Shown: piece after piece, positions 17,556 through 37,187 of the stretch | How the letters are laid out: the number at the start of each line of letters is the position of its first letter | How positions within the stretch are numbered: position 1 is the stretch's first letter | From: Mycobacteriales bacterium | Lineage (GTDB): Bacteria; Actinomycetota; Actinomycetes; JAFAQI01 | Reading direction: 5' to 3' | Length of the DNA: 42,194 nt | Assembly (NCBI GenBank): GCA_035550055.1 | Contig: DASZRO010000028.1 | Coordinates: forward strand, 1-42,194 | Notes under the pieces: model-generated | The model's database searches: none | What the model saw: the letters and a program-made list of their open reading frames with translations, nothing else | What the model was told of the DNA's origin: nothing | Position numbers and translations under genes: made by a program

Positions 17556-19499
17556 ATGCCACCGACCGCAAAGCCAGCCAACGCCGCGGCGAAGCTCACC
17601 AGCGCCGCGGGGACGGCCGGCTGGCTCGAGGTCCTCGCCGGCGGCGCGGACGTGGCGGTCATCGAGGAGCACCGGGCGCGGCTGCTCGCCGCGGCGAAGG
17701 ACGAAGCAGGGCGCGCGGATGTCGAGCGCGCCGCCAACCAGGCGCTGCGGCTGCACGCCCAGCTGCGTGAGCACCGGCAGCGCCTCGCCGAGCTGGGCGC
17801 GCTGCACGAGCTGACGCTGCGGCTGGCGGGGGTGCGCAACCTCGACGCGCTCCTGCAGGACATCGTCACCGAGGCCCGCCGGCTGCTCGACGTCGACGTT
17901 GCCTATCTCGCGCTGCGCGAGCCCGACGACTCGCTGCCCATCAGGGTCACCGATGGGTCGCTCGGCCCGCACCTGCGGGGCGTCGTGATCCCGCCGCACG
18001 TCGGCGTCGCCGGTCGCGTCGTCGACAGCGGCGAACCGGTCAGCAGCATCGACTACCTCGGTGACGCCGAGCTGCACCACCGTGACGACGTCGATCGCAT
18101 CGCGCGCACCGAAGAGCTGCGAACCATCGCGGGCGTCCCGATGCGGCTGCGCGGCGACATCATCGGCGTGCTGATGATCGCGCAGCGAGACGTCCGGCCG
18201 CCGTCGCCGAACGAGATGTCGATGCTCGGGTCGCTCGCCTCGTTTGCGGCGATCGCCATCGACTCGGCGCGACAGCTCGAGGACCACGTCCGGGCGGCGG
18301 CCGAGACCGCCGCGGCGCACGAGGCGTTGCGGGTCCAGGCGGAGGGCACCGCTCGCGCGGCAACCCTGCACGAGCGGCTCATGGACGTCGCGTTGTCCGG
18401 TGGCGGGGTCGGCAAGGTGATCGAAGCGCTCTCCGAAGTGGTGCAAGGCGTCGTCGCCTTTGCGGATGAGTCCGACGTCGTCGTTGCTGCGGCGCAGGAC
18501 GGCAAGCCGGTGGCGGGCGTCACGGTGCGCGAGGTCGACGGCGCTGCGCCGTCGACGACGTTCCGGCCCCTCGCCCAACGCCACACCTATCTTGCCGACG
18601 GTCTGACCACGGTCCCGGTCGCTTCCGCCGACTCCTACTTCGGTGCCCTTCAGGTGGCGACCGACGACGGCCTCGACGACGTGGCGCGTCGGCTGCTGGA
18701 GCGTTCGGCGTTGACGATCGCGTTGGTGGTCGCCTCAGAGCGGGCGGTCAGCGACGCGGAGCGGCGCACCAGCGCGGAGGTCCTCGAGCAGCTGCTCACC
18801 CGGCGGATCGAGGACCTGCCCGGTTTCACCCGGCGGGCGCGCAGCCTCGGACTCGACGTGACGGCGCGCCACGTGGTCGCCGTCGCCGCCGTCGAGGCGA
18901 ACCGCGCCCTGCCGGTCCTTGTCGGCTTGGAACGCCACGCCCAGGACCACGGCGGGCTGGCTGCTCGGCTCGGCGGCCAGGTCGTCGCCGTCGTACGTTC
19001 GGACGACCTCGACGAGGCGCGCGCGGCGATCGCCGCGATCGCGCCCCGGACGACGATCGGCGTTGCCGGCCCGGTCGCCGGACCCGACGCTCTCAAGCAG
19101 TCCTACGACGACGCCGCCGCGTGCGCATCCGTGCTGACCGCGCTCGGTCGCGACGGCGAGTGCGCCGGACCGGAGGACTTCGGGCCCTACCGGTTCCTGT
19201 TGGCGCGCGCGGGCCGCCAGGACGTCGGCCGGTTCATCGAGCGCACCATCGGTCCGCTCATCGAGCACGACGCCAACCGGGGCGCCGAACTTGTGAAGAC
19301 CGCAGACATCTTCCTGGCGGCAGGGCGCCAGCACGCGGCCGCTTCCGCGGAGCTCAACATCCATCCGAACACGCTCTACCAGCGGCTGCAGCGCATCAGC
19401 CGTCTGCTCGGCGAGGGGTGGCGATTCGGTGACCGTGCTCTCGACATGCAGATGGCGCTGCGCCTGCACCGACTGCTCGCCGGAGATTCTCCCTACTGA
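17556..19499 (+). CDS. GAF-domain PucR-family transcriptional regulator
   Basis: 647 residues. An N-terminal helical region (1-85) ends in a coiled stretch LREHRQRLAELGALHELT. A GAF sensor domain follows (about 88-245, with VGVAGRVVDSGEP and IAGVPMRLRGDIIGVLMIAQ), then a helical linker, a degenerate GGDEF/CdaR-like region (about 415-530) and a PucR helix-turn-helix (about 580-640, with ASAELNIHPNTLYQRLQRISRLLG). I chose ATG at 17556 because AAGGAG lies 5 bases before it, the clearest ribosome site in the area. PucR/CdaR proteins usually activate adjacent catabolic or uptake genes. Here the nine-gene transporter operon begins 64 bases downstream, so it is the likely target. Confidence 0.92.
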   Translation: MPPTAKPANAAAKLTSAAGTAGWLEVLAGGADVAVIEEHRARLLAAAKDEAGRADVERAANQALRLHAQLREHRQRLAELGALHELTLRLAGVRNLDALLQDIVTEARRLLDVDVAYLALREPDDSLPIRVTDGSLGPHLRGVVIPPHVGVAGRVVDSGEPVSSIDYLGDAELHHRDDVDRIARTEELRTIAGVPMRLRGDIIGVLMIAQRDVRPPSPNEMSMLGSLASFAAIAIDSARQLEDHVRAAAETAAAHEALRVQAEGTARAATLHERLMDVALSGGGVGKVIEALSEVVQGVVAFADESDVVVAAAQDGKPVAGVTVREVDGAAPSTTFRPLAQRHTYLADGLTTVPVASADSYFGALQVATDDGLDDVARRLLERSALTIALVVASERAVSDAERRTSAEVLEQLLTRRIEDLPGFTRRARSLGLDVTARHVVAVAAVEANRALPVLVGLERHAQDHGGLAARLGGQVVAVVRSDDLDEARAAIAAIAPRTTIGVAGPVAGPDALKQSYDDAAACASVLTALGRDGECAGPEDFGPYRFLLARAGRQDVGRFIERTIGPLIEHDANRGAELVKTADIFLAAGRQHAAASAELNIHPNTLYQRLQRISRLLGEGWRFGDRALDMQMALRLHRLLAGDSPY

Positions 19500-19563: not shown

Positions 19564-20448
19564 ATGACGATCGACATCCGCGGCGAGGTGCGCACAACCA
19601 CCGTTGGTGCCCGGACCGTGGCCTGGACGACGTACGGCGACCCCACCGGGACGCCGGTCGTCTACTTCCATGGCGCCGGCGGTTCGCGGCTGGAGGCGAG
19701 CTATCTCGACTCCGACGCCGCGGCCGCCGGGCTGCGGGTGATCTCGGTCGACCGGGCGGGCTGTGGCCGTACCGACCCGATGCCGTCACGCACCCTGCTC
19801 AGAACTGTCCGCGACCTCGACGCCGTGCTCGCGGTGGAGGACGTGGAGCGGTTCTCGGTGTGCGGACTGTCGGCGGGCGCCATGTACACATGGGCGAGCG
19901 CCGAGGTCTATCGCGACCGGGTCGACCGCGCAGTGCCGATCAGCCCGCCGGCGAACGGCGAGCCTCACCGGGATGTGCGGGCCGCGTTCGGGTTCCAGTT
20001 CAAACTGACCGCCTTCCTGTCCTTGCACGCGGCGGGCGTGCTGGCCGCGATGCAGCGCAAGCAGTCGAGGGGCTTCGACCGTCCGGACGGTCAGGCGCGG
20101 TTCGTCAAGGCGATGCGCAAGATCTCCCCGGACGACGCGACGCTGCTAGAGGACAAGACGATGTACGACACGTTCCGGGCCATCAGCACCGAAGGGCGTC
20201 GGCAAGGACATCTGGGTGGTGAGGAGTTCGGCCTCGCATGGCGGCCGTGGGGATTCGACCCGGCGACGCAGACCGTGCCGTGCACCGTCGTCTACGGCGC
20301 TACCGATCCGCTGACGCCGGCGATTCGTGCGTGGTTGCGCCACGCCCCTGACGTAGTGGGGGTGGAGGTCCCGGGCGGTCATCTCCAGATCGCGATGCCC
20401 ACCGGCCGTGCCGCGGTGATCGCGGCGCTGACCTCGCGCGCCGCGTGA
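19564..20448 (+). CDS. Alpha/beta hydrolase, first gene of the transporter operon
   Basis: 294 residues. The HGAGGSR oxyanion turn is near residue 39, VDRAGCGRTD follows, the nucleophile is Ser in CGLSAGA (near 103), acid Asp lies in YGATDPLTP and the base His in PGGHLQIA. The upstream in-frame ATG at 19429 lies inside the PucR gene and was rejected. Its TGA overlaps the GTG of the lipoprotein gene by 4 bases. In this operon it probably cleaves an ester or amide in the imported compound. The substrate is not readable. Confidence 0.9.
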   Translation: MTIDIRGEVRTTTVGARTVAWTTYGDPTGTPVVYFHGAGGSRLEASYLDSDAAAAGLRVISVDRAGCGRTDPMPSRTLLRTVRDLDAVLAVEDVERFSVCGLSAGAMYTWASAEVYRDRVDRAVPISPPANGEPHRDVRAAFGFQFKLTAFLSLHAAGVLAAMQRKQSRGFDRPDGQARFVKAMRKISPDDATLLEDKTMYDTFRAISTEGRRQGHLGGEEFGLAWRPWGFDPATQTVPCTVVYGATDPLTPAIRAWLRHAPDVVGVEVPGGHLQIAMPTGRAAVIAALTSRAA

Positions 20449-22094
20449 GTCACCACCGGCGAGCCGCGCGCGCCGCGTTGCCGGCGGCGCTCGCACTCGC
20501 GGCCGCGCTGCTCGCAGGCTGCGGGACGACCGTCCCGTTGCAGACGCAGCAGTACGTCTACGGCGGCGGCACCGCAGCCACGGGCGGCAGCCTCAGCGAC
20601 GGACTCGGTGACAACGGTCTCGGGGGCACCGGCGACGAGCCGGGCGGGCAGTCGTCGGCGCCGCTGCCGGGCCAGAGCACCGCGCCGGGCCAGACGACGC
20701 TGCCTGGCACAGGCGTGACCTCCGGCGGCAACCCGGGTGCTGAGACGGGTTCGACAGGCGCGCCGTCGTCCGGCGGCAAGCCCGGCAAGCCCGTCGTCAC
20801 GCCCGCGAAGCCCGGCAAGGTCGACACCGGCTACGACGCGATCCCCAAGACCGGCCCCGGGTGGGACGCGCACAACGTGTACATCGGCGTCACCACGGTC
20901 AACGACATCGCCACTGTCGCAACCGCACTCGGCCTGAAGTCGGCCAACCCGGGCAACCAGGTCAAGGACGGCCAGGCCATGATCGCCGAGCTGAACCGTG
21001 AGGGCGGCTTGTTCGGCCGCAAGGTGGTGCTCGCCGCCGACAACGAGTCGACCGCGTCGCTGCTCGTCGACCCCGACCAGGACGCCTCCCAGGCGTGCAC
21101 CCACTTCACGCAGGACCGCCCGGTCATCGCGGTCTGGAACACCCTCACCCCGCTGGACACGCCCACGTTCCGCTCCTGCTTCGCGCAGGCGCACATCCCG
21201 TTGCTCAGCGGATCGATTGCACCGACCGACACCGCCGCGCTCAACGACCTGCACGGCTACGCGATCTCGGTGATCTCGCCGAGCTTCACCGACCTCGCGC
21301 CCACCCTCGTCGCCAGGCTGAAGGCCGAAGGCTTCTTCACCGGCTGGAACACGACGACCGGCGCGCCGGGCAGCGCGCCGATCAAGGTCGGGATCATCGC
21401 GAAGAACGACCCGACCGGGGCGCGGGCGGCGGCGTTGCTGTCGGCCGCGCTTGCGCGGGCGGGCTACGCACCGACGGCGCAGTTCAACTACACCGTCGGT
21501 GCCAGCGGTACGACGTCGAACCTGAGCAGTGCCGTCCTTCAGTTCCGGGCGCGCGGGATCACGCACATCTTCTCGACCGACAACGGGTACGCGTCGTTCC
21601 TCGAGAGCGCGAACAGCCAGCACTACTACCCGCGGTCGGCGATCTCGTCGTTCCAGACCCCGGAGCTGCTGCAGGCCAACGCCCCGAAGAAGGAGCTGGT
21701 CGGCGCGCTGGGGATCGGCGCCGACCCGAGCATCGACGTCGCGCAGGCGCAGGACCCCGGCTACATCACGCCCGCGGAGAAGACGTGCCTGCTCTCGCAG
21801 CAGAAGCTCCAGTCGTACTCCGGACTGCGCTTCGCGGAGGCGATCGGTCTCGAATACTGCGACGCGTTCCGGCTGATCCGCGCGGCCGCGCTGGCGGCGG
21901 GCGGGCTGACCGGTCCGGATCTCGTGAAGGGTCTGCAGCTCGCCGGCCCGACGTACGTCCCGTCGATCTCGTTCGCGAGCGGGCTGCACACCAACGACTT
22001 CGCGCTCCCCGGCGCCGGGCGCGACCTCGCTTTCGAGACCAAGTGTCAGTGCTTCGCCTACACGTCGACGACCAACTACCGCTTCGGGGACTGA
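20445..22094 (+). CDS. LivK-type ABC substrate-binding lipoprotein
   Basis: 549 residues from GTG at 20445. A short basic N-terminus and hydrophobic stretch end in a lipobox LLAGC (Cys near 25). A 100-residue Gly/Ser/Thr/Pro linker follows, then a type I periplasmic-binding fold of the Leu/Ile/Val family (about 135-540; blocks include AMIAELNREGGLFGRKV, a Ser/Thr-rich ligand loop and a C-terminal CQCF). The long linker would hold the receptor away from the membrane. Liv-family receptors bind amino acids, amides, aromatic acids and other small ligands. It overlaps the hydrolase gene by 4 bases and is the only substrate receptor in the operon. Confidence 0.92.
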   Translation: MSHHRRAARAALPAALALAAALLAGCGTTVPLQTQQYVYGGGTAATGGSLSDGLGDNGLGGTGDEPGGQSSAPLPGQSTAPGQTTLPGTGVTSGGNPGAETGSTGAPSSGGKPGKPVVTPAKPGKVDTGYDAIPKTGPGWDAHNVYIGVTTVNDIATVATALGLKSANPGNQVKDGQAMIAELNREGGLFGRKVVLAADNESTASLLVDPDQDASQACTHFTQDRPVIAVWNTLTPLDTPTFRSCFAQAHIPLLSGSIAPTDTAALNDLHGYAISVISPSFTDLAPTLVARLKAEGFFTGWNTTTGAPGSAPIKVGIIAKNDPTGARAAALLSAALARAGYAPTAQFNYTVGASGTTSNLSSAVLQFRARGITHIFSTDNGYASFLESANSQHYYPRSAISSFQTPELLQANAPKKELVGALGIGADPSIDVAQAQDPGYITPAEKTCLLSQQKLQSYSGLRFAEAIGLEYCDAFRLIRAAALAAGGLTGPDLVKGLQLAGPTYVPSISFASGLHTNDFALPGAGRDLAFETKCQCFAYTSTTNYRFGD

Positions 22095-22095
22095 G

Positions 22096-22983
22096 ATGAC
22101 GGAGTCGAGATACAGCCGCAAGGGCGTGAAGGTCGACGGCGGCTTGCTGATGGTCGGGGAGTGGGCGGCCGACAGTCCGCCGGTCGTCGCGATCCACGGC
22201 GTGTCGAGCACGCATCTGCTCTGGCAGTGGACCGCGGCGGCGGCGCCCGGCGTGCGACTGGTCGCGCCGGACCTGCGCGGGCGGGGCAGCAGCGTCGACG
22301 TCGCGGGACCGTACGGCCTGACGCGACACCGTGACGACGTGCTCACGGTGATGGACTCGATGGGGATCGACAAGGCGGTCGTCGCCGGCATGTCGATGGG
22401 TGGATTCGTCGCGACGGCGCTGGCTGACTTCGCCCCCGACCGGGTCAGTGAGCTGTTGCTGGTCGACGGCGGCCCGCCGATGACCCCGCCGACGGCGCCT
22501 GCCGCGGCCGAGACCTCCAGCGAGGAGCCCCTTGCCGACCGGCTCGAGCGCACCGACCGGACCTACGCCCGAGTCGAGGACTACAAGCGCACCTTCCTCG
22601 GCGGCGTCGGTGCCTCCCTCGACCCCGACGACGCGCTGCTGACCGACTACCTGCGCTACGACCTGGTCGGGCAGGCGCCCGAGCTCGAAGTGCGGCTTGC
22701 GCCGGACGCTGTCCGGCAGGACGCCGCAGACGTGTTCTTCGGCTGCCCGGTTGAGGAGTGGATGGCGGGGCTCACCATGCCCGTCACCCTGCTCTACGCC
22801 GAGTGGTCGATCGGTGCCGGCTCCGATCCGGCGTACCCCGAAGACGTCGTCGACGGGTGGCGGGCGCGGCTGCCCCAGCTGCAGGCGAGGCTCGTGCCCG
22901 GCGTCGACCACGCGGGCAGCGCGATGTCGGCGACCGGGGCCAAGGAGATCGCGGTCGAGCTCCAGCGAGCCGTCGGGCGATGA
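22096..22983 (+). CDS. Alpha/beta hydrolase (second in operon)
   Basis: 295 residues. IHGVSSTHLLW forms the oxyanion region, followed by PDLRGRGSS. The nucleophile Ser lies in AGMSMGGF (near 98) and the base His in VPGVDHAGS near the C-terminus. It starts 1 base after the receptor stop and overlaps the next gene by 4 bases. It is only distantly like the operon's first hydrolase, so two separate hydrolytic steps, or two ester positions in one substrate, are likely. Confidence 0.9.
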   Translation: MTESRYSRKGVKVDGGLLMVGEWAADSPPVVAIHGVSSTHLLWQWTAAAAPGVRLVAPDLRGRGSSVDVAGPYGLTRHRDDVLTVMDSMGIDKAVVAGMSMGGFVATALADFAPDRVSELLLVDGGPPMTPPTAPAAAETSSEEPLADRLERTDRTYARVEDYKRTFLGGVGASLDPDDALLTDYLRYDLVGQAPELEVRLAPDAVRQDAADVFFGCPVEEWMAGLTMPVTLLYAEWSIGAGSDPAYPEDVVDGWRARLPQLQARLVPGVDHAGSAMSATGAKEIAVELQRAVGR

Positions 22984-24410
22984 CCGCCGTCGAGGCAGGG
23001 CCGCCGGCGGTGTCGGCGGCACAACTCGTGGAGCTGCTCGGCCGCGAGTTGCCTGCCGACCGCGTGGTCGTCGACGCCGACGTCCTCGACAGCCTCTCTC
23101 GCGACCAGGCGGCGTGGGCGCCGGTCGGCGCGGCCGTCGCCGCAATCCGTGCCCGCACCACCGCCGAGGTGGCTGCTGTGGTGGCGACCTGCGCGACGCT
23201 CGGCGCGCCGGTGGTGGCTCGTGGCGCCGGGACCGGCTTGTCGGGCGGCGCGAACGCCGTCGACGGCTGCGTGGTCCTCGACCTGTCGAAGATGGACGCG
23301 ATCGTCGAGATCGATCGCGACAACTTGGTGGCGGTGGTCGAGCCGGGCGTCGTCAACGACGACCTCAAGGCCGCCGTCAAGGAGCTCGGGCTGTGGTACC
23401 CGCCGGATCCGGCCAGCTCGCCGTGGTCGACGATCGGCGGCAACGTCGCGACCAACGCCGGCGGGTTGTGTTGCCTCAAGTACGGCGTCACCCGCGACTA
23501 CGTGATCGGCCTCGAGGCAGTGGTCGGCGGCTCATCGGGTTACGGCACCGTCGCGCGCCTCGGCCGGCGTACGACGAAGGGCGTCGCGGGCTACGACCTG
23601 GTCGGACTGATGACCGGGTCGGAAGGCACGCTGGGCATCGTCACGCAGGCGACCGTCAGACTGCGCCCGCAAGTCACGGGGGTGCCGCGCACGGTGGTCG
23701 GCAGCTTCGACAAGCTCGTCCAGGCCGGCGAGGCCGTCGCGCTGATCACCCGTCGGGGGCTGGTACCGGTCGCGTTGGAGCTGCTCGACCGCTACTGCAT
23801 GCAAGCTGTCGAGGACTGGAAGCATCTCGGGCTCAGCCTCGACGCCGAGGCGCTGTTGCTGGCCCGGGTGGACACCCCCGGGGAGTCGGGCGCGACCGAG
23901 GCGCAGGCGATCGTCGACGCGTTCACGGAGTGCGGCGCCAACTGGGCGGAGCAGTCGACCGACGACGCCGAAGCCGAGGCACTGTTCGCCGCGCGCCGCC
24001 TCGCCTATCCCGCACTCGAACGGCTCGGCCCGGTGCTGACCGAGGACGTGTGCGTGCCGCGTTCGGAGGTTCCCGGCATGCTCGCCGCCATCGAGGAGAT
24101 CGCGCGACGGTACGACGTGAAGATCGCGAGCATCGCGCACGCCGGCGACGGCAACCTCCACCCGCTGATCATCGGCGCCGCCGGCGACGGCGCTCCGCCG
24201 CCCGCGGCGCTGGCAGCCTTCGAGGAGATCCTCGACGCCGCGATCGCGCGGCGCGGCACGGTCACCGGAGAGCACGGCGTCGGCGTCCTGAAAGCAGGGG
24301 GCATGCAGCGCGAGCTCGCTCCAGCCGCCGAGTCACTGATGCACGACGTCAAGGCGGCGCTCGACCCGCGCAACCTGTTCAATCCCGGCAAGGTGCTCGC
24401 CGCCCGATGA
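22980..24410 (+). CDS. FAD-linked oxidase of the GlcD / D-lactate dehydrogenase type
   Basis: 476 residues. The PCMH-type FAD domain (about 40-220) has RGAGTGLSGGAN and the stretch STIGGNVATNAGGLCCLKYG. The C-terminal FAD-oxidase domain has HAGDGNLHPL and GEHGVG, conserved in 2-hydroxyacid oxidases such as glycolate oxidase subunit GlcD and D-lactate or D-2-hydroxyglutarate dehydrogenases. No GlcE or GlcF partner follows. It overlaps both neighbours by 4 bases. A 2-hydroxy acid released by the operon's hydrolases would be a fitting substrate. That is inference from context. Confidence 0.92.
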   Translation: MTAVEAGPPAVSAAQLVELLGRELPADRVVVDADVLDSLSRDQAAWAPVGAAVAAIRARTTAEVAAVVATCATLGAPVVARGAGTGLSGGANAVDGCVVLDLSKMDAIVEIDRDNLVAVVEPGVVNDDLKAAVKELGLWYPPDPASSPWSTIGGNVATNAGGLCCLKYGVTRDYVIGLEAVVGGSSGYGTVARLGRRTTKGVAGYDLVGLMTGSEGTLGIVTQATVRLRPQVTGVPRTVVGSFDKLVQAGEAVALITRRGLVPVALELLDRYCMQAVEDWKHLGLSLDAEALLLARVDTPGESGATEAQAIVDAFTECGANWAEQSTDDAEAEALFAARRLAYPALERLGPVLTEDVCVPRSEVPGMLAAIEEIARRYDVKIASIAHAGDGNLHPLIIGAAGDGAPPPAALAAFEEILDAAIARRGTVTGEHGVGVLKAGGMQRELAPAAESLMHDVKAALDPRNLFNPGKVLAAR

Positions 24411-26416
24411 GCAGCCCCGGACGGCGCGGACTGTGGACGCTCGTCGCGCTCGGCCTGCTCGCCGGTGTCGCCGACCTCCAGCCTTACGGCGTCTCGCTGT
24501 TCATGCCGCAGCTCGCAACCAGCCTCAAGGTGACGGCGCTGTCGCTGATCAGCGTGCGGGGACCGGCGATCGGCGTCGCCTACCTGCTGCCCTTCGCCGT
24601 GCCGATGCTCACCGAGCGCCGGGCCGTCGCGGTGCGTACCTGGACGACCCGGGTCAGCGCGATCGCGTGCGCGCCGGTGTTGGCGCTCACCGGCGAGGTG
24701 CATGGGGTGTGGGCGCTGGTGGGCGTGTTGTGCCTCGGTGTCGTTGTCGCTGCGCCGGGCCAGGTGCTCCAGCGCTCGACCGCGATCGCCGAGGTATCGG
24801 ACGGCCGACGGATCCGAGCGCTCGCCGTGCTGCAGGCGGGTGTCCTGCTGGCGCAGGTCACCCTTCCGTTCGGTGTTCTGCTCGCCGGCGGGGCGAGCTG
24901 GGACAACGCGCTGGTCGTTGCCGCGGTCGTGGCCGTCGTGGTTGCGGTGCTGGCATCGGGATTGCAGCGGGCGACCGAGCCGTTCGCCCCCGCCTTGCCG
25001 CCGGTCGCCGAGGCGCCGAACTTGCCGGAGCTGCTCCGCACCTGGCAGGCGTCACGATCGCTGCTCGGTATCGGCGCGGTGATCGTGGCGCTGGGCATGC
25101 TGTCGATGTCCTACGAGCTCGTGCTGTCGATCTACCTGCACCAGCACTGGAAGCTCGGGACGCGCGGTGTCAGCGGAGTGTTCCTCGCGATGTCCCTCGC
25201 GGGGTTGGTCCTCGTCGTGGCGACCGCGAACTACGCCGATCGGCTGCTCACGACTGCTCCGGCGCGCCTGGCCCGCCTCACGTGGGTGGCGATGGCGACG
25301 GGCTCGGCCCTGCTGCTGGTCGGTCCGGCGCTGTCCGACCGCGACGCGATGGCGGTCCTGGTCACTGCCGGCTACGCACTTGCGAGCGCAGTGCTTCCCG
25401 TCATGGTGGGTTTCGCGCTCACCCTCGTCCCTGCACAACAACGGACCTGGCTGTCGGCGGTGTCGCTGGTCCTGCTCGCGCTCGGCGGCGTGCTTGGTGT
25501 CGTCCTCGAGGTCTGCGTCGCCGATCGGTACGGCGCCCCGAACGCGCTCGTCGCCGTCGCCGGCATGGGGGTGATCGCGGCGCTGGTGTGGCGCTGGGCG
25601 AGCGCTTATGTCGAGGCCGATCGAGGCCGAAGTGAAAGGCAGAGTCTGGGCGTGCGGCCGGAGGGGGCCGCGCGGTCGGACGCGCTCCTCGACTGCCGCG
25701 ACATCGACTTCTCCTACGGATCGCTACAGGTCCTGTTCGGCGTCGACGCCCATGTCGACGAAGGCGAGATCGTCGGGCTGCTCGGCACGAACGGCGCCGG
25801 CAAGTCCACCCTGCTGCGCGTCATCTCCGGTCTCGGAATCCCGCAGCGCGGCAACGTCACCTTCGACGGGCGCGACATCACCTATCTCGACGCCGAAGCC
25901 CGGGTCCGGATCGGCATCACGCAGGTGCCCGGCGGCAAGGCCGTGTTCCGGTCGATGAACGTGGTGGAGAACCTGCAGAGCTTCGGCTACACGCTCGGCC
26001 GGGACCGGCGAGCCGTCGACGAGGCGATCGAGCGGTGCTTCGAGGCGTTCCCTCGGCTGAAGGAGCGTCGTACCTCCTCGGCCGCGATGCTCTCCGGCGG
26101 TGAGCAGCAGATGGTCGCGCTGTCGAAGGCGCTGATCCTTCGCCCGAGGGTGCTGCTGATCGACGAGCTGTCACTCGGGCTGGCGCCGGTGATCGTCACC
26201 CGGCTGCTCGACATGGTGCGCCGGATCAACGCCGACGGCACCGCGGTGGTGATCGTCGAGCAGAGCGTCACGACCGCGTTGTCGCTCGTCGACCGCGCGT
26301 ACTTCATGGAGAAGGGTGAGGTGCGCTTCGACGGGCCGGCAGCCGACCTGATCGATCGCCACGACCTGCTCCGCGCGGTCTTCCTCGAGGGCGCCGCGAA
26401 GGGCGTCGTCGCGTGA
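24407..26416 (+). CDS. Fusion: 12-TM MFS-like domain plus LivF-type ABC ATPase
   Basis: 669 residues in one uninterrupted frame. Residues 1-400 hold about 12 hydrophobic segments with MFS-like layout and a central cytoplasmic loop (about 187-215). Residues 425-669 are a complete LivF-type ATPase: Walker A GTNGAGKST (460-468), signature LSGGEQQ (562-568), Walker B VLLIDE (582-587) and the LivF-typical IVEQS switch Gln. The ATG overlaps the oxidase stop by 4 bases, and the TGA overlaps the GTG of the permease fusion. An internal GTG at 25652 could start a free ATPase, but no stop ends the MFS part and no strong ribosome site precedes it. LivF is normally a free soluble subunit. Here it is tied to a secondary-transporter-like domain of unknown purpose. 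Confidence 0.92.
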   Translation: MSSPGRRGLWTLVALGLLAGVADLQPYGVSLFMPQLATSLKVTALSLISVRGPAIGVAYLLPFAVPMLTERRAVAVRTWTTRVSAIACAPVLALTGEVHGVWALVGVLCLGVVVAAPGQVLQRSTAIAEVSDGRRIRALAVLQAGVLLAQVTLPFGVLLAGGASWDNALVVAAVVAVVVAVLASGLQRATEPFAPALPPVAEAPNLPELLRTWQASRSLLGIGAVIVALGMLSMSYELVLSIYLHQHWKLGTRGVSGVFLAMSLAGLVLVVATANYADRLLTTAPARLARLTWVAMATGSALLLVGPALSDRDAMAVLVTAGYALASAVLPVMVGFALTLVPAQQRTWLSAVSLVLLALGGVLGVVLEVCVADRYGAPNALVAVAGMGVIAALVWRWASAYVEADRGRSERQSLGVRPEGAARSDALLDCRDIDFSYGSLQVLFGVDAHVDEGEIVGLLGTNGAGKSTLLRVISGLGIPQRGNVTFDGRDITYLDAEARVRIGITQVPGGKAVFRSMNVVENLQSFGYTLGRDRRAVDEAIERCFEAFPRLKERRTSSAAMLSGGEQQMVALSKALILRPRVLLIDELSLGLAPVIVTRLLDMVRRINADGTAVVIVEQSVTTALSLVDRAYFMEKGEVRFDGPAADLIDRHDLLRAVFLEGAAKGVVA

Positions 26417-29310
26417 CGGGCCGGCTGCGGCTCGCCGCGATGTGCGCGGCTGGTCTGGTCGCGCTGTGGCTCGTGCTCGACTTCGTGCTGCCGCACGTCA
26501 TCTCGACCAGCGAAACCTCGACCGGTCACTGGCAGACGCCGTTGCCGGTGGTGGTCCTCGGGCTGATCGAGGGTGCGTCGTACGGGCTGCTCGCGGCGGG
26601 CCTGGTGTTGATCTACCGGTCCAACAAGATCATCAACTTCGCGCACGGAGAGGTGGGCGCGTTCGCCGCCTCGTTCTTCGCGATCGAGGTCACGACCTGG
26701 CACGTGCCGTTCTGGCTGGCCCTCGTCCCGGCGCTGATCGTGGCGGCGTTGATCGGCGTACTGATCGACAACACCGTCGTGCGCTGGTTGCGCAACGCGC
26801 CCGCCGTCATGAGCGTCGTCGCGACGCTGATCGCCGGGGAGAGTCTCGGCGGCTTCTCGCAGGTGATCAACAGCCACGCGGTCAACGGGATCGTCACGAT
26901 CCCGCAGCCGCCGGGCCTGCCGACCTTCAGCGTGGGTGCACTGCTCGTCACCCAGTCCTACGTCGCCATCCTGATCATCGCGCCGATCGCGGTCGCGGCG
27001 GTTGGGATGTTCCTGAAGTTCAGCCGGACCGGTCGCGGCATCCGCTCGGCTGCCGACAACCCTGACGCGGCGCGCATGGCCGGCATCCCGGTCAACCTCA
27101 TGAGCTCGATCGCATGGGCGGTCGCCGGCGGTCTTGCCGCGCTCACCGCCATCCTGACCGCGCCCTCGGTCGGGTCCAGCGGTGAAGGGTTCGGCCCGTC
27201 GCTGCTGCTCATCGCCTTGACCGGTGCGGTGCTCGCGAGGATGCGCAGCCTGCCGGGTGCGATGGCGGGTGGGCTCGGGATCGGCGTGCTCGAGCAGCTG
27301 CTGGCGTGGAACTCGCAGAACGGCGGCATCGTCGAGATGGCGCTGTTCGTGCTGATCGTGGTCGGCCTGCTGGTGCAGCGTCAGCCGATCGGACGCAGCG
27401 AGGACAAGGGCTCGTGGTCGGTCATCACGCCGAGCCGGCCGCTGCCCGCCACCGTGCGTGCCTTGCCGTCGGTGAAGGTGCTCGAACGGGCGCCGTGGGT
27501 CGTGCTGTTCGCGATCCTCGCGGCGCTCCCGTTGCTGGTCGACAACGGCACCAGCCAGTCGCTGACCGTCACCGTCGCCTTCACGATCGTCGCGCTGGCG
27601 CTCGGGATCGTGACCGGGCTCGGCGGGCAGTTGTCCCTCGGACAGTTCGCGATCTCGGCTGTCGGCGCCTACGCCTCGTGGCAGATCGCCCGACGAACCG
27701 GCAACTACGTCGAGTCCTTCGCCTATGCCGCCGGTGCCGGCGCGTTGCTCTGCGTGCTGCTCGGCCTTCCCGCCGTCAAGGCGCGCGGGCTGATGTTCGC
27801 GGTGACGACGCTCGCCTTCAGCCTCGTCGTACCGGACTTCCTGCTCGGCGAGCACTGGGTGCTCGGCACCGGTCAGATCCCGGGCCGTCCGATCATCCAC
27901 GGGCACGCCATCGCGTCTGGCCACGCGTACTACTACTTCGCGGTGTGCATTCTGGTGATCGCGCTGCTGTTCTCGCACAACGTGCGCCGCGGCGGGCTGG
28001 GACGTCGGCTGGTGGCCGTCCGGGACAACGAAGATGCGGCGCGCTCGTTCTCGATCAGCGCGACGTGGACGAAGATGCAGTGCTACGCCCTCGCCGGTGC
28101 GCTGACCGGCGTCGCCGGCGCGATGTACGGCCATTCGCTGCCGCAGATCGGCTACGACGGGTGGCCGGTCACGGCCAGCCTCGGCGTCGTCCAGATCGCT
28201 GTGGTCGGCGGGCTGGGCACCCTCGCCGGTCCGATCTTCGGGGCCGCCGTCGTCTCGGGACCGACGTACGCCACCATCGGCGCGCTCGGCAACGCGCTGC
28301 TCGGCCAGGTCTACCTCTGGACCGTGCTGTTCCTTCCGGGCGGCATCGTGCAGCTCCCGCTGGCGTTGCGCAACCGCGTCGCGGCGTGGCTCGCCGGCCG
28401 CGCCGGGATCGACTTCGCCGCCGCCGCCGCGGCCGAGCGCGGCATCACCGAGGCCGCCACCGAACCGCGGGCGATCCCGGAGTTCGCGCGCCCGGTGCAT
28501 CGTCGCGTCTCGGGGACTGGGGCGCTGCTGGAGGTCCGTGACCTGCGGGTGTCCTTCGGCGGGGTCCGCGCGGTGCGCGGGATGTCCTTCGAGGTGCGGG
28601 AGGGCGAGACGCTTGGTCTGATCGGTCCGAACGGCGCAGGGAAGACGACGACCTTCGAGCTGATCGCGGGCTTCGTCCGACCCGACGGCGGCTCGGTGTC
28701 CTTCCGCGGGGCCGACATCACGAGGCTCTCGCCCGAGGCGCGGGCCCGGCGAGGGCTGATCCGGTCGTTCCAGGACGCCGCGTTGTTCCCGACGCTCACC
28801 GTCGCCGACTGCGTCGCGCTCTCCCTCGAGCGGACCGCGCCGACCTCCGTCGCGCTCGCCTCACTCGGGATCCGGCCGGGGGAGCGACGCAAGCGGTCGG
28901 ACGCCGATGAGCTGCTGGACTGGATGGGCCTGGCGCGCTACCGGTCGAGTGTGATCGGCGAGCTGTCGACCGGCACCCGGCGGATCACCGAGATCGCCTG
29001 TCTGGTGGCGTTGCAGCCGGAGCTGCTGCTTCTCGACGAGCCGTCGTCAGGCGTGGCGCAGCGGGAGACGGAGGCGCTCGGCGAGCTACTTGCGAGGCTG
29101 CGCCGTGAGCTGTCGTTGACGATGGTCGTGATCGAGCACGACATGCCACTGATCATGGGCTTGTCGGATCGGATCGTCTGCATGGCCGACGGTGAGGAGA
29201 TCGCGATCGGTACGCCGGAACAGGTCCAGCGCCACCCTGCCGTCATCACGGCGTACCTCGGTGGCGAGGTCACCAGGGCAGCCGAAGCCCCGGTAGGAGC
29301 GTCACGATGA
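26413..29310 (+). CDS. LivH-LivM-LivG triple fusion (two permeases and one ATPase)
   Basis: 965 residues from GTG at 26413. A first TM segment (8-28) precedes a LivH permease domain (about 43-325, with IYRSNKIINFAHGEVGAF), a LivM permease domain (about 365-655, with GLGGQLSLGQFAISAVGAY and GGLGTLAGP) and a LivG ATPase (about 705-950). Walker A is GPNGAGKTT (738-746), Walker B LLLLDE (871-876) and the switch His is in IEHDM. The ABC signature reads LSTGT (851-855) against canonical LSGGQ. With the LivF half of the preceding protein and the LivK lipoprotein this makes a complete Liv/HAAT importer from three polypeptides. LivM-LivG fusions are known in actinobacteria. Having LivH too is less usual. 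Confidence 0.94.
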   Translation: MTGRLRLAAMCAAGLVALWLVLDFVLPHVISTSETSTGHWQTPLPVVVLGLIEGASYGLLAAGLVLIYRSNKIINFAHGEVGAFAASFFAIEVTTWHVPFWLALVPALIVAALIGVLIDNTVVRWLRNAPAVMSVVATLIAGESLGGFSQVINSHAVNGIVTIPQPPGLPTFSVGALLVTQSYVAILIIAPIAVAAVGMFLKFSRTGRGIRSAADNPDAARMAGIPVNLMSSIAWAVAGGLAALTAILTAPSVGSSGEGFGPSLLLIALTGAVLARMRSLPGAMAGGLGIGVLEQLLAWNSQNGGIVEMALFVLIVVGLLVQRQPIGRSEDKGSWSVITPSRPLPATVRALPSVKVLERAPWVVLFAILAALPLLVDNGTSQSLTVTVAFTIVALALGIVTGLGGQLSLGQFAISAVGAYASWQIARRTGNYVESFAYAAGAGALLCVLLGLPAVKARGLMFAVTTLAFSLVVPDFLLGEHWVLGTGQIPGRPIIHGHAIASGHAYYYFAVCILVIALLFSHNVRRGGLGRRLVAVRDNEDAARSFSISATWTKMQCYALAGALTGVAGAMYGHSLPQIGYDGWPVTASLGVVQIAVVGGLGTLAGPIFGAAVVSGPTYATIGALGNALLGQVYLWTVLFLPGGIVQLPLALRNRVAAWLAGRAGIDFAAAAAAERGITEAATEPRAIPEFARPVHRRVSGTGALLEVRDLRVSFGGVRAVRGMSFEVREGETLGLIGPNGAGKTTTFELIAGFVRPDGGSVSFRGADITRLSPEARARRGLIRSFQDAALFPTLTVADCVALSLERTAPTSVALASLGIRPGERRKRSDADELLDWMGLARYRSSVIGELSTGTRRITEIACLVALQPELLLLDEPSSGVAQRETEALGELLARLRRELSLTMVVIEHDMPLIMGLSDRIVCMADGEEIAIGTPEQVQRHPAVITAYLGGEVTRAAEAPVGASR

Positions 29311-29669
29311 TCGGACGGGTACGCGAGCTCGTGAGGTTGCCGAGGACCTGGACGTGTCTGGGCATGGCGGTCCTCGCCGCCGGATGCGTGCTGCTGGCCA
29401 TCGGGTGGAGCCTGGTGGCGGGCAAGTCGGAAGTGGCGTTGCAGATCCCCTACCTGCTCTCGGCGGCGCTACCCGGGGTCGGACTCATCGTGGTGGGGGT
29501 CGGACTGGTCGTCGTCGGAGTCCGCGAGGCCGACGCGCGAGCCCGCCGCGCCCAGCAGCAAGAGCTGGCGTCGCTGCTGACGGTGCTGCGCGACGAGCTG
29601 ACAGCGCCGTCGGCGCCGCCCGCGGCGCCGACCGCTCGTCCCCGCCGGGCCCGCAAGGAGGCCGGATGA
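29307..29669 (+). CDS. Small two-TM protein A of the transporter operon
   Basis: 120 residues with membrane segments at about 17-36 and 50-71, joined by a loop with VALQIP, then a cytoplasmic coiled segment (ARARRAQQQELASLLTVLRDEL) and an Ala/Pro/Arg tail. It overlaps the permease fusion and the next gene by 4 bases each. It shares topology and a sequence pattern (GW-x-VA-x(n)-VA-x-Q-x-P, then GLIVVGVGL) with the next protein, so the two are paralogues. I do not know the family. A transporter accessory subunit is the natural guess. Confidence 0.85.
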   Translation: MIGRVRELVRLPRTWTCLGMAVLAAGCVLLAIGWSLVAGKSEVALQIPYLLSAALPGVGLIVVGVGLVVVGVREADARARRAQQQELASLLTVLRDELTAPSAPPAAPTARPRRARKEAG

Positions 29670-29974
29670 AGCGCCCCGCCGACAACCCGGCGCTGCCGAG
29701 CCTGTTGCTGTTCGCCGGCATGGTTGTGGCCGGCTTCGTGGCGATGGGGCTGGGGTGGCGGGTCGCGGCGCGGACGCTGAACGTCGCCGTGCAGGTGCCC
29801 GCCGTCGTCAGCGGTGGGCTGGGCGGGCTCGTGCTCATCGTGATCGGCACCGGCCTGTTCGTCGCTCAGCTGGGGCGTGCAGCGGCCGCTGAAGAGCGCA
29901 CCGATCTCGACGACGTCCTCGATCGCACGTCCGAGGTCATCCAGGCGGTCCGCTCCGCCGGCGGCGAGCGATGA
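29666..29974 (+). CDS. Small two-TM protein B of the transporter operon
   Basis: 102 residues, two membrane segments (about 10-32 and 45-68) with VAVQVP in the connecting loop, then a short charged cytoplasmic helix (LDDVLDRTSEVIQAV). AAGGAGG (29655-29661) lies 4 bases before the ATG, the strongest ribosome site in the operon. It is a paralogue of the preceding protein with the same GW-R-VA and VQVP pattern. It overlaps both neighbours by 4 bases. The two may pair in the membrane, possibly with the bitopic surface protein encoded next. Confidence 0.85.
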   Translation: MKRPADNPALPSLLLFAGMVVAGFVAMGLGWRVAARTLNVAVQVPAVVSGGLGGLVLIVIGTGLFVAQLGRAAAAEERTDLDDVLDRTSEVIQAVRSAGGER

Positions 29975-30981
29975 GGGCCGGGCTGCGGCTGGCCGTCGCC
30001 GCGTTCGCGATCGGGGCCGCCGTGCTGCCGGCTGCCACGGCCAGCGGCGTCGTCGCAACCGGTGGCACGCGATCGGTGCTCGTCACCCGGCAGCCGGTCG
30101 TGCCGGACGTGCTGCATCCGAAGATCACGGCGGCCGCTTGGTTCCAACCCGATCCGCTGTGTGCCACTCCGCTCGGATGCGGGTTCATCCCGCTGCCGGC
30201 GCTCTCGCCGTACCCGAAAGGGACCTTCCACGTCGGCACCGCCGTCGGGCGGCAGATCGCTCGCGCTTTCATCGCGGTACGGCTCAGCGCCCGGGCACAG
30301 CGCGCGGACGGCGGGACGCTGACCGTCCCGCTCGACACGTCGGTGGCTGACGGCAGCATCGACCCGCAAGCCGCGAAGGTGAACGTCTGTGTCACCTATC
30401 AGGCGATCACCGACACCGAAGGCGGCTTCGACAATCCGCCTTCGGTGAACTGCCTGCCCGCCGCCCACGCGAAGTACGTCGCGAAACCGACGCCACGTCT
30501 GGTCGCCGACCTCCGCCGGCTCGGGCCGCTGGCGGGGGTGAAAGGGTTCGCGCTGCTGCCCGCCGACGCCGCGCCCACGACCGCGTGGCAGATCGCGTTC
30601 CGCCTCGCCCACGCAGCAAGTTCCGCCGGCCCGCGGCTGCGCCTGCTGACCCGGGCCGCGCACCCGGCAGCCGCGAAGACCCCGCCCACCAAAACCCCGG
30701 GTGCGCAGCATCACACCGCGGCGGGCACCTCGGAAGGCGGGCGGCGGGCAGCGGGGCCGAGCGTCGGCGGCGACGTACCCATGCCCGCGCTGCCCTCGAC
30801 CGCCGAGACCGCGCCGCCGACCGACCCGCGGCCGGTGATCGCGCGGCGGACCACGCAGCTTCGGCGGCTGGTGACAGTCGGCTACCAGTACCCGCAGGTG
30901 TGGCTGCTGCCGCTGGCGCTGATCGTGCTCATCCCGTTCACGCTGCGGGCACTGACGAAAGACCTCACCCGCCGGCGCTGA
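29971..30981 (+). CDS. Secreted, C-terminally membrane-anchored protein (last gene of operon)
   Basis: 336 residues. A signal peptide (about 1-25, ending ATASG) precedes an extracellular domain (about 30-225) with cysteines in PLCATPLGCGF, NVCVTY and VNCLPA, possibly two disulfides. A disordered Ala/Pro/Thr stretch (about 230-290) leads to a C-terminal TM helix (near 310-326, WLLPLALIVLIPF) and a basic tail (TKDLTRRR). This is the layout of a membrane-tethered surface protein. I see no enzyme motif and do not recognise the family. It overlaps the preceding gene by 4 bases, so it belongs to the transporter operon and may present ligand or brace the transporter outside the membrane. Confidence 0.85.
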   Translation: MRAGLRLAVAAFAIGAAVLPAATASGVVATGGTRSVLVTRQPVVPDVLHPKITAAAWFQPDPLCATPLGCGFIPLPALSPYPKGTFHVGTAVGRQIARAFIAVRLSARAQRADGGTLTVPLDTSVADGSIDPQAAKVNVCVTYQAITDTEGGFDNPPSVNCLPAAHAKYVAKPTPRLVADLRRLGPLAGVKGFALLPADAAPTTAWQIAFRLAHAASSAGPRLRLLTRAAHPAAAKTPPTKTPGAQHHTAAGTSEGGRRAAGPSVGGDVPMPALPSTAETAPPTDPRPVIARRTTQLRRLVTVGYQYPQVWLLPLALIVLIPFTLRALTKDLTRRR

Positions 30982-31011: not shown

Positions 31012-31452
31012 CTAGTTGTCGACGACGAGCTTGCTGACCCTCACGGTCAGGCGGAAGCGCGGGCTGGTCTTGCCGCCCTTCTCGGCGCGACGCTCCACGA
31101 CGCGGATGGCGGCCCGGCCGGGCTTGCGCGCTTCGAACGTCCACGTCTCGAACTGCTCGCCGCCGACGGCCGGCGGCTTGGCGGTGGAGGTGAGGCTGAC
31201 GTGCGTCATGTGCAGCACCGGCGTGTTGGCGGAGGTCAGCTTCAGCGAGTCGCCGCAGTCGCCGCACACCTCGAGGCGGACCTTGAACGGCTTGCCGACG
31301 AACGCGGTGACCGTGTGCCCGGAGTCCTTCTGGCGGTAGACGACCGGCGCCTTGGCGACCGGCCTTGCGTGGGCCGCCGTGGCGACGCCCAGCACCGGCG
31401 CGGCGGTGGCGAGGACGGTGGCGGCGGTGAGGGCGAGGGCGCGTGGCTTCAT
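31012..31452 (-). CDS. Secreted chagasin-like (inhibitor I42-like) protein
   Basis: 146 residues with a signal peptide (1-29, cleavage near AAHARP). The mature part looks like the Ig-like chagasin fold: VTAFVGKPFKVRLE, PVLHMTHV, AVGGEQFETWTFEARKPGRAAI, and a final FRLTVRV strand. The GG-x(4)-W-x-F-x-A pattern is typical of peptidase inhibitor family I42. The NPTTGY loop of true chagasins is replaced by CGDCGDS, and the RPW loop is not obvious, so inhibition of cysteine peptidases is uncertain. It starts 9 bases after the four-TM protein's stop and is probably co-transcribed with it. Confidence 0.75.
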   Translation of the reverse strand: MKPRALALTAATVLATAAPVLGVATAAHARPVAKAPVVYRQKDSGHTVTAFVGKPFKVRLEVCGDCGDSLKLTSANTPVLHMTHVSLTSTAKPPAVGGEQFETWTFEARKPGRAAIRVVERRAEKGGKTSPRFRLTVRVSKLVVDN

Positions 31453-32230: not shown

Positions 32231-34411
32231 GTGAGCATTCGTGCTGTTCAGCGACGCCGCATCGCGCGACTCGGCGGGGTTCTCGTCGCGGTTGCGGCAG
32301 CGGTGGTCCCGGCGGTGGCGCCGAGCGCCGCCGCCCATCCGGCCGAGGCCAGGCCCGGACCTGCCGATGCTGCGACCTTCTCGGTGATCGGTCAGCCGAG
32401 TCTTGGCGGCGCCACCCTCGCCAGTCGCTGTCCCAACGCCGACGCGCAGTTCAGCAGCCATGACTTCGGCGGGTTCACCACCGACGGCCCGACCGGGATC
32501 GCGATCGGGTCGACCGGGCGGCTCTACGTCGTCGACGACGGCGGCCGACGAGTCCTCAGCTGGCCTGACGCGGACGCCATGACGGCCTGCCAGCCGGCCG
32601 ACGAGGTCATCGGTGGGACCCCGGGCGTAATGGTCGGTCCGGAGGCGATCACGGTCGACGGCGCGGGCAAGGTGTACGTCGCGGACACGCTCAACCACAC
32701 GGTCGACATCTTCGTGCCGGGAGCGGGCGGCAGCTACCCGTCGCGCCCGACGTACGTGCTGGGCACACCGGGCGTCTCGGGCAAGGGGATGAACGAGTTC
32801 AACTACCCCCGCGGCCTGGCGGTCGACGAGACCGGACGGCTCTACGTCGCGGACGACGACAACAACCGCGTGCTGATGTTCGACCCGCCGTTCGCCACCG
32901 GAATGAAGGCGGACGACAGCATCGGCGCCGGAGCCGATGGCGGCTTCGCCGGCCCGAAGGCGCTCGCCGTGTCCGGGGACTCGTTGTTCGTCGCCGACTA
33001 CTACGACAACCGCGTGCTGCGCTTCACCGGCCCTTTCGACGACCCGGCCACGACGTATGCCTCGACCGCCACCTACACCGGCGTGACGCATCCGGTCGAC
33101 CTGACAGTCGGCCCCGACGGGTCGCTCTACGTGACCCAGCAGGGTGACGGCGCTGCGGCGGCACCGAGCCTCGCGGTCTACGCCAACGCCGTCACAAGCG
33201 GGAGCCAGACCCAACCGGCAGCGACCTCGAACTTCGACGGCGCCATCACGGGCGACTCTCCGCTCGGCGTCGCCGTCGACGCGAGCTCGCGGATCTTCCT
33301 GTCCGACTACGAGGGCTACCGGGTGCTCGTGCACTACCTGCCGGCGCCGGCGCATGCGGTGGACCCCCTGGCGAGCGCCGCGACCAATGGCCTGCTGCAG
33401 ACCTTGCAGTCGCGGGCCGGCTTGTCGAAGGGCCGCGTGCTGCTCGGTCAGGAGATGCCGACGTTCGAGTCGGGGAAAGCCGAGTGGTACCGCGTGTTCA
33501 CCCGGCTGCGCCGACGCAAGCTGCCGGAGCCGGTCGTGATGGGCGCCGAGCTCGACTCGATCCGTGACGGCAAGAACGACACGGCGATCAGCACGATGAT
33601 CACGCACGCCCACGCCGGTGGGGTGCTGGAGCTCGACTGGCATCCGAACGACCCGGTCGACAACTCCTTCCCCGGTGCGCCGATCACGCCCGCTCAGATG
33701 ACGCAGCTGACCCAGCCCGGGACGACGCTGTACAACACGTGGCACGCCAACCTTGACGGTGCGGCGGCGACGCTGGCGAAGTTCCAGGCCGCGGGTGTTC
33801 CCGTGCTGTTCCGGCCGCTGGTCGAGATGAACGGTGTGAAGTTCTTCTGGTGGTCCGACGACGGGAGCACCGGTGCGCCGCACGCGGCGCGGATTCAGGC
33901 TTTCGCTGCGCTGTGGCAGGACATGGTCCACTACCTGACGGTCACGAAGGGGCTGCACAACCTGCTGTTCCTGTACTCGCCGAACGCGGTGGGGTGCGAC
34001 TGCGCTGTGCCGGCCATGACCTACTACCCGGGGTCGGCGTACGTCGACGCGGTGGGCATCGACGTCTACGACAACGACCTCGCGATCGGTCGCACCCCCG
34101 ACGACGATCGTGGTCTGACCACCTACCAGGACATGGTCGCCGCGGGGAAGCCGTTCGGGTTCTCGGAGTTCGGGCAGGGGCCGAACGCCGCAGGCAACGG
34201 CACCGGCTCGCTGGGCCGGTCGTGGGACGCGAGAACGTTGGTCGAGCGCGTCCGGGACAGCTACCCCGCGGTCGCGTTCGCCACTGCCTGGTACTCCACG
34301 TACAACAGCCGGGGCAGGGCGACGTACGTCTACGAGCTGTCTGATCTCACCGACGTGGCCCGGTTGCTACGGGACCCGCTGATCAAGACGCTGCCGACCG
34401 GTACGCCGTAG
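32231..34411 (+). CDS. Secreted NHL-repeat beta-propeller fused to a GH26 (beta-mannanase-type) domain
   Basis: 726 residues. I chose GTG at 32231 because it begins a clean Sec signal peptide (basic RRRIAR, hydrophobic LGGVLVAVAAAVV, cleavage near AAAH). An upstream ATG at 32099 adds an unlikely leader. Residues about 45-375 carry repeated NHL blades (GIAIGSTGRLYVVDDGGRRVL, AVDETGRLYVADDDNNRVL). Residues about 390-720 form a GH26 barrel with the acid/base Glu in FRPLVEMNG-x-KFFWW (about E532) and the nucleophile Glu in FSEFG (about E646). GH26 enzymes are mostly endo-beta-1,4-mannanases. The propeller may bind polysaccharide or wall. The gene could feed the GH2 beta-mannosidase at 6056-8491. 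Confidence 0.9.
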   Translation: MSIRAVQRRRIARLGGVLVAVAAAVVPAVAPSAAAHPAEARPGPADAATFSVIGQPSLGGATLASRCPNADAQFSSHDFGGFTTDGPTGIAIGSTGRLYVVDDGGRRVLSWPDADAMTACQPADEVIGGTPGVMVGPEAITVDGAGKVYVADTLNHTVDIFVPGAGGSYPSRPTYVLGTPGVSGKGMNEFNYPRGLAVDETGRLYVADDDNNRVLMFDPPFATGMKADDSIGAGADGGFAGPKALAVSGDSLFVADYYDNRVLRFTGPFDDPATTYASTATYTGVTHPVDLTVGPDGSLYVTQQGDGAAAAPSLAVYANAVTSGSQTQPAATSNFDGAITGDSPLGVAVDASSRIFLSDYEGYRVLVHYLPAPAHAVDPLASAATNGLLQTLQSRAGLSKGRVLLGQEMPTFESGKAEWYRVFTRLRRRKLPEPVVMGAELDSIRDGKNDTAISTMITHAHAGGVLELDWHPNDPVDNSFPGAPITPAQMTQLTQPGTTLYNTWHANLDGAAATLAKFQAAGVPVLFRPLVEMNGVKFFWWSDDGSTGAPHAARIQAFAALWQDMVHYLTVTKGLHNLLFLYSPNAVGCDCAVPAMTYYPGSAYVDAVGIDVYDNDLAIGRTPDDDRGLTTYQDMVAAGKPFGFSEFGQGPNAAGNGTGSLGRSWDARTLVERVRDSYPAVAFATAWYSTYNSRGRATYVYELSDLTDVARLLRDPLIKTLPTGTP

Positions 34412-36720: not shown

Positions 36721-37187
36721 CGGCCGATCGGACCGAGCCCGGCAGGCAGCCCGAAGATCTCGGCTTGCGGCGCGGTGCGGGCGAGGGACCGGTAGCGGCG
36801 GTCGGCGAACCACCACCGCCCGTCGAGCTTGCGGTAGCGGTCGTGGTAGACCCCGTACGCCGTCGACCAGCCGTCGTCGCCATCGACCGAACCGGCGTCG
36901 CGGTGATGCCGGATCTCACACATGAACATCCGGCTACGGCCGGTGTCGCCGTCGGCTTCCACCACCGCGTTCAACACGACGAACTGGAAGTGGTCGAACC
37001 GGTCGGTGGCGGTGCGGACGAAGTTCGCGAACTCGGCCGGTCCGATGAACGTGCGTTTCGGGCTCGTGACGGTGTCGACCTCGATCGTGGCGTCCGGCAG
37101 CAGCAGCCGTTCGAGCTCGTCCCACGCCCGGCGTGACACCACGTCGGCGTAGCCGAACTGGAGCTCGCGGATCGCGGCGGTGTCCAC
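36717..37187 (-). CDS. NTF2/SnoaL-like protein
   Basis: 156 residues of the NTF2-like alpha+beta cone: an N-terminal helix pair (IRELQFGYADVVSRRAWDELERLL), then PDATIEVDT, a middle helix (EFANFVRTA) and strands HFQFVVLNAVVEAD, SRMFMCEIRHHRD and YGVYHDRYRKLDGRWWFADRRY. The size and the W-x-F-x(2)-R-x-Y ending fit SnoaL-like polyketide-cyclase or dehydratase relatives, which are mostly uncharacterised. It lies 18 bases downstream of the DHA2 exporter gene on the same strand and may be co-transcribed with it. Confidence 0.85.
   Translation of the reverse strand: MDTAAIRELQFGYADVVSRRAWDELERLLLPDATIEVDTVTSPKRTFIGPAEFANFVRTATDRFDHFQFVVLNAVVEADGDTGRSRMFMCEIRHHRDAGSVDGDDGWSTAYGVYHDRYRKLDGRWWFADRRYRSLARTAPQAEIFGLPAGLGPIGR

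Follow-up and report, generated by a model that had tools for sequence, protein, structure and literature searches.

A Liv-type importer operon of a Mycobacteriales bacterium and two membrane protein families that look like missing parts of a widespread actinobacterial transporter

The window analysed here is a stretch of 42,194 nucleotides (positions 1 to 42,194 of contig DASZRO010000028.1) from a Mycobacteriales bacterium whose assembly, GCA_035550055.1, comprises 3.5 Mb in 122 contigs. Nine genes on the same strand (19564-30981, +) form an operon. Its likely products are an ABC importer of the Liv (HAAT) type, extended by accessory subunits, and degradative enzymes that would act after it in the cytosol. 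The transporter varies a known theme, and its uncharacterised part is the pairing of Liv genes with two protein families, 2TM and Surf. These families make up the last three genes of the operon, which look like missing parts of a transporter widespread in Actinomycetota. From their gene neighbourhoods and natural fusions we infer that Surf and 2TM are accessory subunits of the importer. Few uptake systems of soil actinobacteria are as common as Liv-type importers, most of whose substrates are unknown.

Surf and 2TM families beside Liv genes

The last three genes of the operon are as follows.
29307-29669 (+): 2TMa, a small double-transmembrane (TM) protein of the Liv-accessory family, without an Ada-like tail in this copy
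29666-29974 (+): 2TMb, a paralog of 2TMa in the same Liv-accessory family
29971-30981 (+): Surf, with a predicted signal peptide, DNRLRE/CBM96-like beta-sandwich (~52-224), Pro/Ala/Thr-rich linker and C-terminal TM segment (308-332)

Whole-genome searches in relatives and in a sample of the phylum recovered a first set of 16 Surf loci, all of which adjoin Liv genes. An independent test in two further classes added nine new loci; in eight of them the retrieved sequence also contains genes for a Liv permease or ATPase. Altogether this holds for 24 out of 25 Surf loci, and the 25th is located on a 4.9-kb contig, flanked by LivK-like lipoprotein genes. Outside the lineage of the window the Liv genes are mostly unfused and follow the order Surf-LivK-LivH-LivM-LivG-LivF-2TM or variants of it. 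The window Surf has no Pfam match at 1e-3 and no significant DNRLRE or CBM96 match. Within the family, a DNRLRE match is present in 6 of 13 members (best E 1.2e-10) and a weak CBM96 match in three of eight (best E 0.02). Furthermore, the best Foldseek match of the Surf model, which is of low-to-moderate confidence (mean pLDDT 55), is an alginate-binding carbohydrate-binding module (CBM), PDB 7vbo (prob 1.00, E 6e-3).

The 2TM family is covered by no Pfam or NCBIfam model; of the window copies, 2TMb has no Pfam match at 1e-3 and 2TMa a sub-threshold match alone. Matches to the 2TM profile occur in 29 out of 296 genomes of the phylum. In newly fetched regions from several classes, 44 of 50 matches have a LivH/LivM permease gene no more than 5 kb away, and another two adjoin LivF/G near contig ends. 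The remaining four are two matches on short or truncated contigs, one weak match (L267) and one real exception (L222). Stretches reaching 5 kb to either side of Liv permease genes make up an estimated ~6% of this genome; even at a background of 20% the binomial probability of the observed adjacency is negligible, a figure to be read loosely because related loci are not independent. In the genome of the window itself, each of the 12 copies of 2TM belongs to or adjoins a Liv operon, and four of these operons are not among the paralogous modules described below. Structure prediction yields a confident helical hairpin (mean pLDDT 84), for which the structure search gave no significant PDB match, and Ada was not recovered by Foldseek. 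Selected full-length relatives have in common a QxPYLxSGG loop between the helices, and in 21 selected relatives the pattern H-x3-C...C-x2-C, with Ada-like spacing, is invariant. Most 2TM relatives carry this Ada-like H-C-C-C tail, which is absent from 2TMa and 2TMb of the window, and Ada entries of the PDB top the 2TM profile search with a weak score (E 0.025-0.086).

Two natural fusions, each from a single genome, connect these families with one another and with the binding protein. The first (L165) is an 820-residue open frame in which Surf (E 8e-12) is followed by TM segments and Peripla_BP_6 (E 2.4e-25), whereas the second (L229) is a 391-residue protein comprising a Surf domain, detected with an expanded profile (E 2e-12), a TM segment and the 2TM hairpin. 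Moreover, at L184 a 2TM gene is inserted between LivM and LivG. Collectively, these arrangements suggest that the binding protein, the tethered domain and the hairpin work together. The original prediction had supposed that the last three proteins might belong to a larger envelope complex; their association with Liv genes turned out to be stronger and wider than supposed, and a physical complex may underlie it.

Many Liv operons without Surf encode, next to 2TM, a member of another family, X (A7), which has a signal peptide and a C-terminal TM segment and no Pfam match. Operons with X and 2TM are L254, L259 and L260 (contigs C31, C108 and C21 of the same genome as the window), as well as L234, L239, L244, L246 and L247.

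Transporter core, paralogous modules and operon layout

Three genes of the operon encode the recognisable parts of the transporter.
20445-22094 (+): LivK-like solute-binding lipoprotein with lipobox LAGC and a Gly/Pro-rich linker (lipobox and family profile)
24407-26416 (+): MFS-LivF fusion, an N-terminal MFS domain and a LivF-type ATPase (Pfam MFS_1 and ABC_tran)
26413-29310 (+): LivH-LivM-LivG fusion (LivHMG), two permease domains and an ATPase (Pfam BPD_transp_2 twice, ABC_tran and BCA_ABC_TP_C)

LivHMG contains two BPD_transp_2 permease stretches (E 2e-51). The best model for its ATPase is LivG (213 bits) and that for the ATPase of MFS-LivF is LivF (192 bits); both scores are under the equivalog cutoffs, and Walker A and signature motifs can be read in both proteins. 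The LivK of the window has no Pfam match at 1e-3, Peripla_BP_6 included, and its identity is based on the lipobox and on the family profile (A6), which matches the branched-chain amino-acid binding protein 4gnr (E 5e-5). The MFS-LivF architecture recurs widely across Actinomycetota: a contig scan with an MFS-LivF alignment, the matches of which are mostly ordinary LivF, found the fusion in Kribbella, Yinghuangia, and Frankiales and Acidimicrobiia metagenome-assembled genomes.

Three close paralogs of LivHMG are encoded elsewhere in the genome (contigs C49, C83 and C106; 50-54% identity), each adjoining an MFS-LivF fusion, Surf and two 2TM proteins, and the same module is present in six relatives. 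The three paralogous modules also carry a small lipoprotein (family A2), which is not found in the window operon. Most modules, and Kribbella too, have A2 ahead of MFS-LivF (L026 14188-14655, L027 7116-7649, L028 13550-14089 and others). In G003, a genome of the sister genus, orthologs of LivHMG (64% identity), MFS-LivF (50%) and LivK (49%) are present, LivK being on another contig. The G003 transporter ortholog has neither hydrolase nor oxidase genes, nor Surf or 2TM, beside it, and Surf is absent from G003 genome-wide.

Reading of the DNA and translations confirmed the overlapping nine-gene layout given by the original prediction, with seven 4-nt ATGA/GTGA overlaps and one 1-nt gap (all +).
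20445-20448 (+): hyd1/LivK, GTGA overlap
22094 to 22096 (+): LivK/hyd2, 1-nt gap
22980-22983 (+): hyd2/GlcD, ATGA overlap
24407-24410 (+): GlcD/MFS-LivF, ATGA overlap
26413-26416 (+): MFS-LivF/LivHMG, GTGA overlap
29307-29310 (+): LivHMG/2TMa, ATGA overlap
29666-29669 (+): 2TMa/2TMb, ATGA overlap
29971-29974 (+): 2TMb/Surf, ATGA overlap

The run is tight, but neither extraordinary nor exotic. Seven 4-nt overlaps among eight junctions have P ~0.001 at the background rate of the genome and 0.02 if that rate is 45%; as a sign of something special the run is weak, since 4-nt overlaps already account for 34 of 116 same-strand junctions (29%) sampled in stretches of the same genome. Stoichiometric production, previously deduced from the tight coupling, does not follow from overlaps alone.

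Downstream of the operon, three further genes were noted.
31012-31452 (-): peptidase inhibitor of the chagasin family (Inhibitor_I42, E 1.4e-7), oriented towards the operon's end
32384-34411 (+): single protein combining NHL repeats with a GH26 domain
36717-37187 (-): SnoaL_4 protein, by eye like the SnoaL-like genes adjoining MFS-LivF/LivHMG in L104 and L107

Enzyme cargo and the substrate

The regulator and the enzyme genes are the following.
17556-19499, start possibly as early as 17241 (+): PucR-type regulator (GAF, GGDEF_2, HTH_30; Pfam)
19564-20448 (+): hyd1, cytosolic alpha/beta hydrolase with a GLSAG nucleophile motif (Pfam Abhydrolase_1, E 1e-12)
22096-22983 (+): hyd2, cytosolic alpha/beta hydrolase with GMSMGG (Pfam, E 1.5e-17)
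22980-24410 (+): GlcD-type FAD-linked 2-hydroxyacid oxidase (Pfam FAD_binding_4 and FAD-oxidase_C; PDB 9qgz)

Pfam and NCBIfam support the domain content originally read for the hydrolases, the oxidase, MFS-LivF and LivHMG. The PucR regulator likewise stands at the head of the operon as had been proposed; it ends 64 nt upstream of hyd1 and likely regulates the operon. PucR-type genes are also located upstream of modules in L028, L030, L033, L034 and L035.

The oxidase matches 9qgz, annotated as 'Glycolate oxidase', over its full length (561 bits) and scores 391 bits against TIGR00387, under the equivalog cutoff of 567.9; the operon contains neither of the partner genes glcE and glcF. Its close relationship to 9qgz suggests a 2-hydroxy acid intermediate. 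Inspection of the translations revealed no evident signal peptide on hyd1, hyd2 or GlcD, and all three would act after import. Catabolism leading from an ester to a 2-hydroxy acid, as guessed in the original prediction, is plausible. A homolog of hyd2 lies within the Surf-LivK operon L165 (blastp 5e-35), and a gene resembling FMN-dependent alpha-hydroxyacid oxidases, unrelated to GlcD, adjoins the C106 module as well as an MFS-LivF/LivHMG pair in two Acidimicrobiia loci; these neighbours would be consistent with such ester-to-hydroxyacid catabolism. LivK-like genes without an adjacent permease were seen beside esterase-, amidase- and hydrolase-like genes in L139, L140 and L162 (same genome, contigs C106 and C31).

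Alpha/beta hydrolases recur beside related LivK and transporter genes. The enzymes next to the modules differ from module to module, as do the hydrolase subfamilies, and no paralogous or relative module contains GlcD. That a single genome has four paralogous copies with differing neighbour enzymes shows a modular transporter core with interchangeable cargo, and hyd1, hyd2 and GlcD are such variable cargo. Other modules adjoin M20/M19 peptidase-like, enolase-superfamily epimerase-like, N-acyl-D-amino-acid-deacylase-like, class C beta-lactamase-like and other esterase genes, all labelled from their sequences and from mutual BLAST comparisons rather than by Pfam. Such neighbours would fit a module that scavenges or recycles peptides or wall-derived amino compounds, with the window operon as a divergent copy whose ester chemistry is incidental. 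We find this doubtful, as none of those enzymes is encoded in the window operon and the neighbours of other modules are nucleoside or esterase genes. At L167, MFS-LivF, LivHMG and Surf are found among genes reading as a nucleoside hydrolase, a deaminase and a ribokinase, which suggests that this module may be a nucleoside importer.

The proposed importer and its relation to known systems

In the importer proposed here, the solute would be captured by LivK, while Surf, with its membrane-tethered CBM96/DNRLRE-like domain, would act on the outer side, docking with or feeding LivK. In the membrane, the two 2TM proteins would lie beside LivH/LivM, probably stabilising or regulating the permease; most other 2TM copies would add a cytosolic Ada-like metal-binding tail, which those of the window lack. 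Transport would be inward, with LivG and the MFS-tethered LivF as the driving ATPases. An ester is the probable, though guessed, substrate; hyd1/hyd2 would serve to cleave it and the GlcD-type enzyme to oxidise it, with PucR controlling the operon.

Beyond the window, the evidence tips slightly towards 2TM and a tethered protein (Surf, or the unrelated-looking X) being genuine subunits of a major Liv-type branch across Actinomycetota. Such an enlarged importer would have its receptor fixed outside the cell, and most copies would have a regulatory tail that binds metal in the cytosol. Several points weigh against the importer proposed for the window. It is purely computational, and linkage and fusions show a functional association rather than a physical complex. 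The good 2TM match at L222 has no Liv gene within 16 kb, and Surf and 2TM are dispensable in at least one relative, G003. Cargo also differs between modules (peptidases and an epimerase-like enzyme, nucleoside enzymes, esterases), and the model does not account for the MFS domain.

Alternatively, Surf and 2TM might serve the envelope or adhesion, with no role in transport, and hitchhike in Liv operons so as to be expressed with them. DNRLRE/CBM96 domains generally occur in binding and cell-surface proteins, and the lack of Surf in G003 is in line with it. However, both families recur with Liv genes over several classes and gene orders, 2TM is found between LivM and LivG, and Surf is fused to LivK and to 2TM, all of which makes hitchhiking unlikely. 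Least probable is the single uptake-and-catabolism system of the original prediction, a nine-component unit whose hydrolases, oxidase and transporter would have evolved together for one substrate. In its favour, translational coupling is unbroken through the nine genes, and related LivK and transporter genes repeatedly have hydrolases nearby. However, the paralogs, the relatives and the G003 ortholog, which has the transporter alone, lead us to reject the nine genes as one conserved system, for synteny shows GlcD and these exact hydrolases to be missing from homologous loci, where the hydrolase subfamilies vary, while the last three genes persist as families.

If the two unannotated membrane families of the enlarged importer are real subunits, the textbook picture of five Liv proteins is incomplete for a whole phylum. 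Many hypothetical proteins would become testable transporter parts, with neighbouring enzymes as clues to their substrates, and the Surf-LivK, Surf-2TM and MFS-LivF fusions are concrete structures to solve. In the open-access literature we found no publication on MFS-LivF fusions, on DNRLRE proteins with Liv transporters or on extra Liv subunits, although one may exist elsewhere.

Several parts of the operon can be set beside known systems. The GlcD of the window resembles FAD-dependent glycolate and D-2-hydroxyacid oxidases (PDB 9qgz) over its full length, but it stands alone without GlcE/GlcF and sits in a transporter operon. Full-length 2TM relatives have four invariant residues spaced much like the ligands of the Ada N-terminal zinc domain (PF02805; 1adn), except that one Cys is replaced by His and the tail is attached to a TM hairpin. 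Some relatives of Surf resemble DNRLRE/CBM96 proteins (NCBIfam NF033679; Pfam PF24517; PDB 7vbo) by profile and Surf itself may do so by fold, whereas Surf is found with Liv genes, has a TM stalk, is once fused to LivK and is accompanied here by no glycan cargo. Finally, the permease and ATPase parts, and probably the binding protein, are shared with the classical Liv/HAAT importer (LivKHMGF; BPD_transp_2, ABC_tran), in which, by contrast, LivH, LivM and LivG are not joined in one chain, LivF is not fused to an MFS domain and the Surf and 2TM proteins, both present in the window operon, do not occur.

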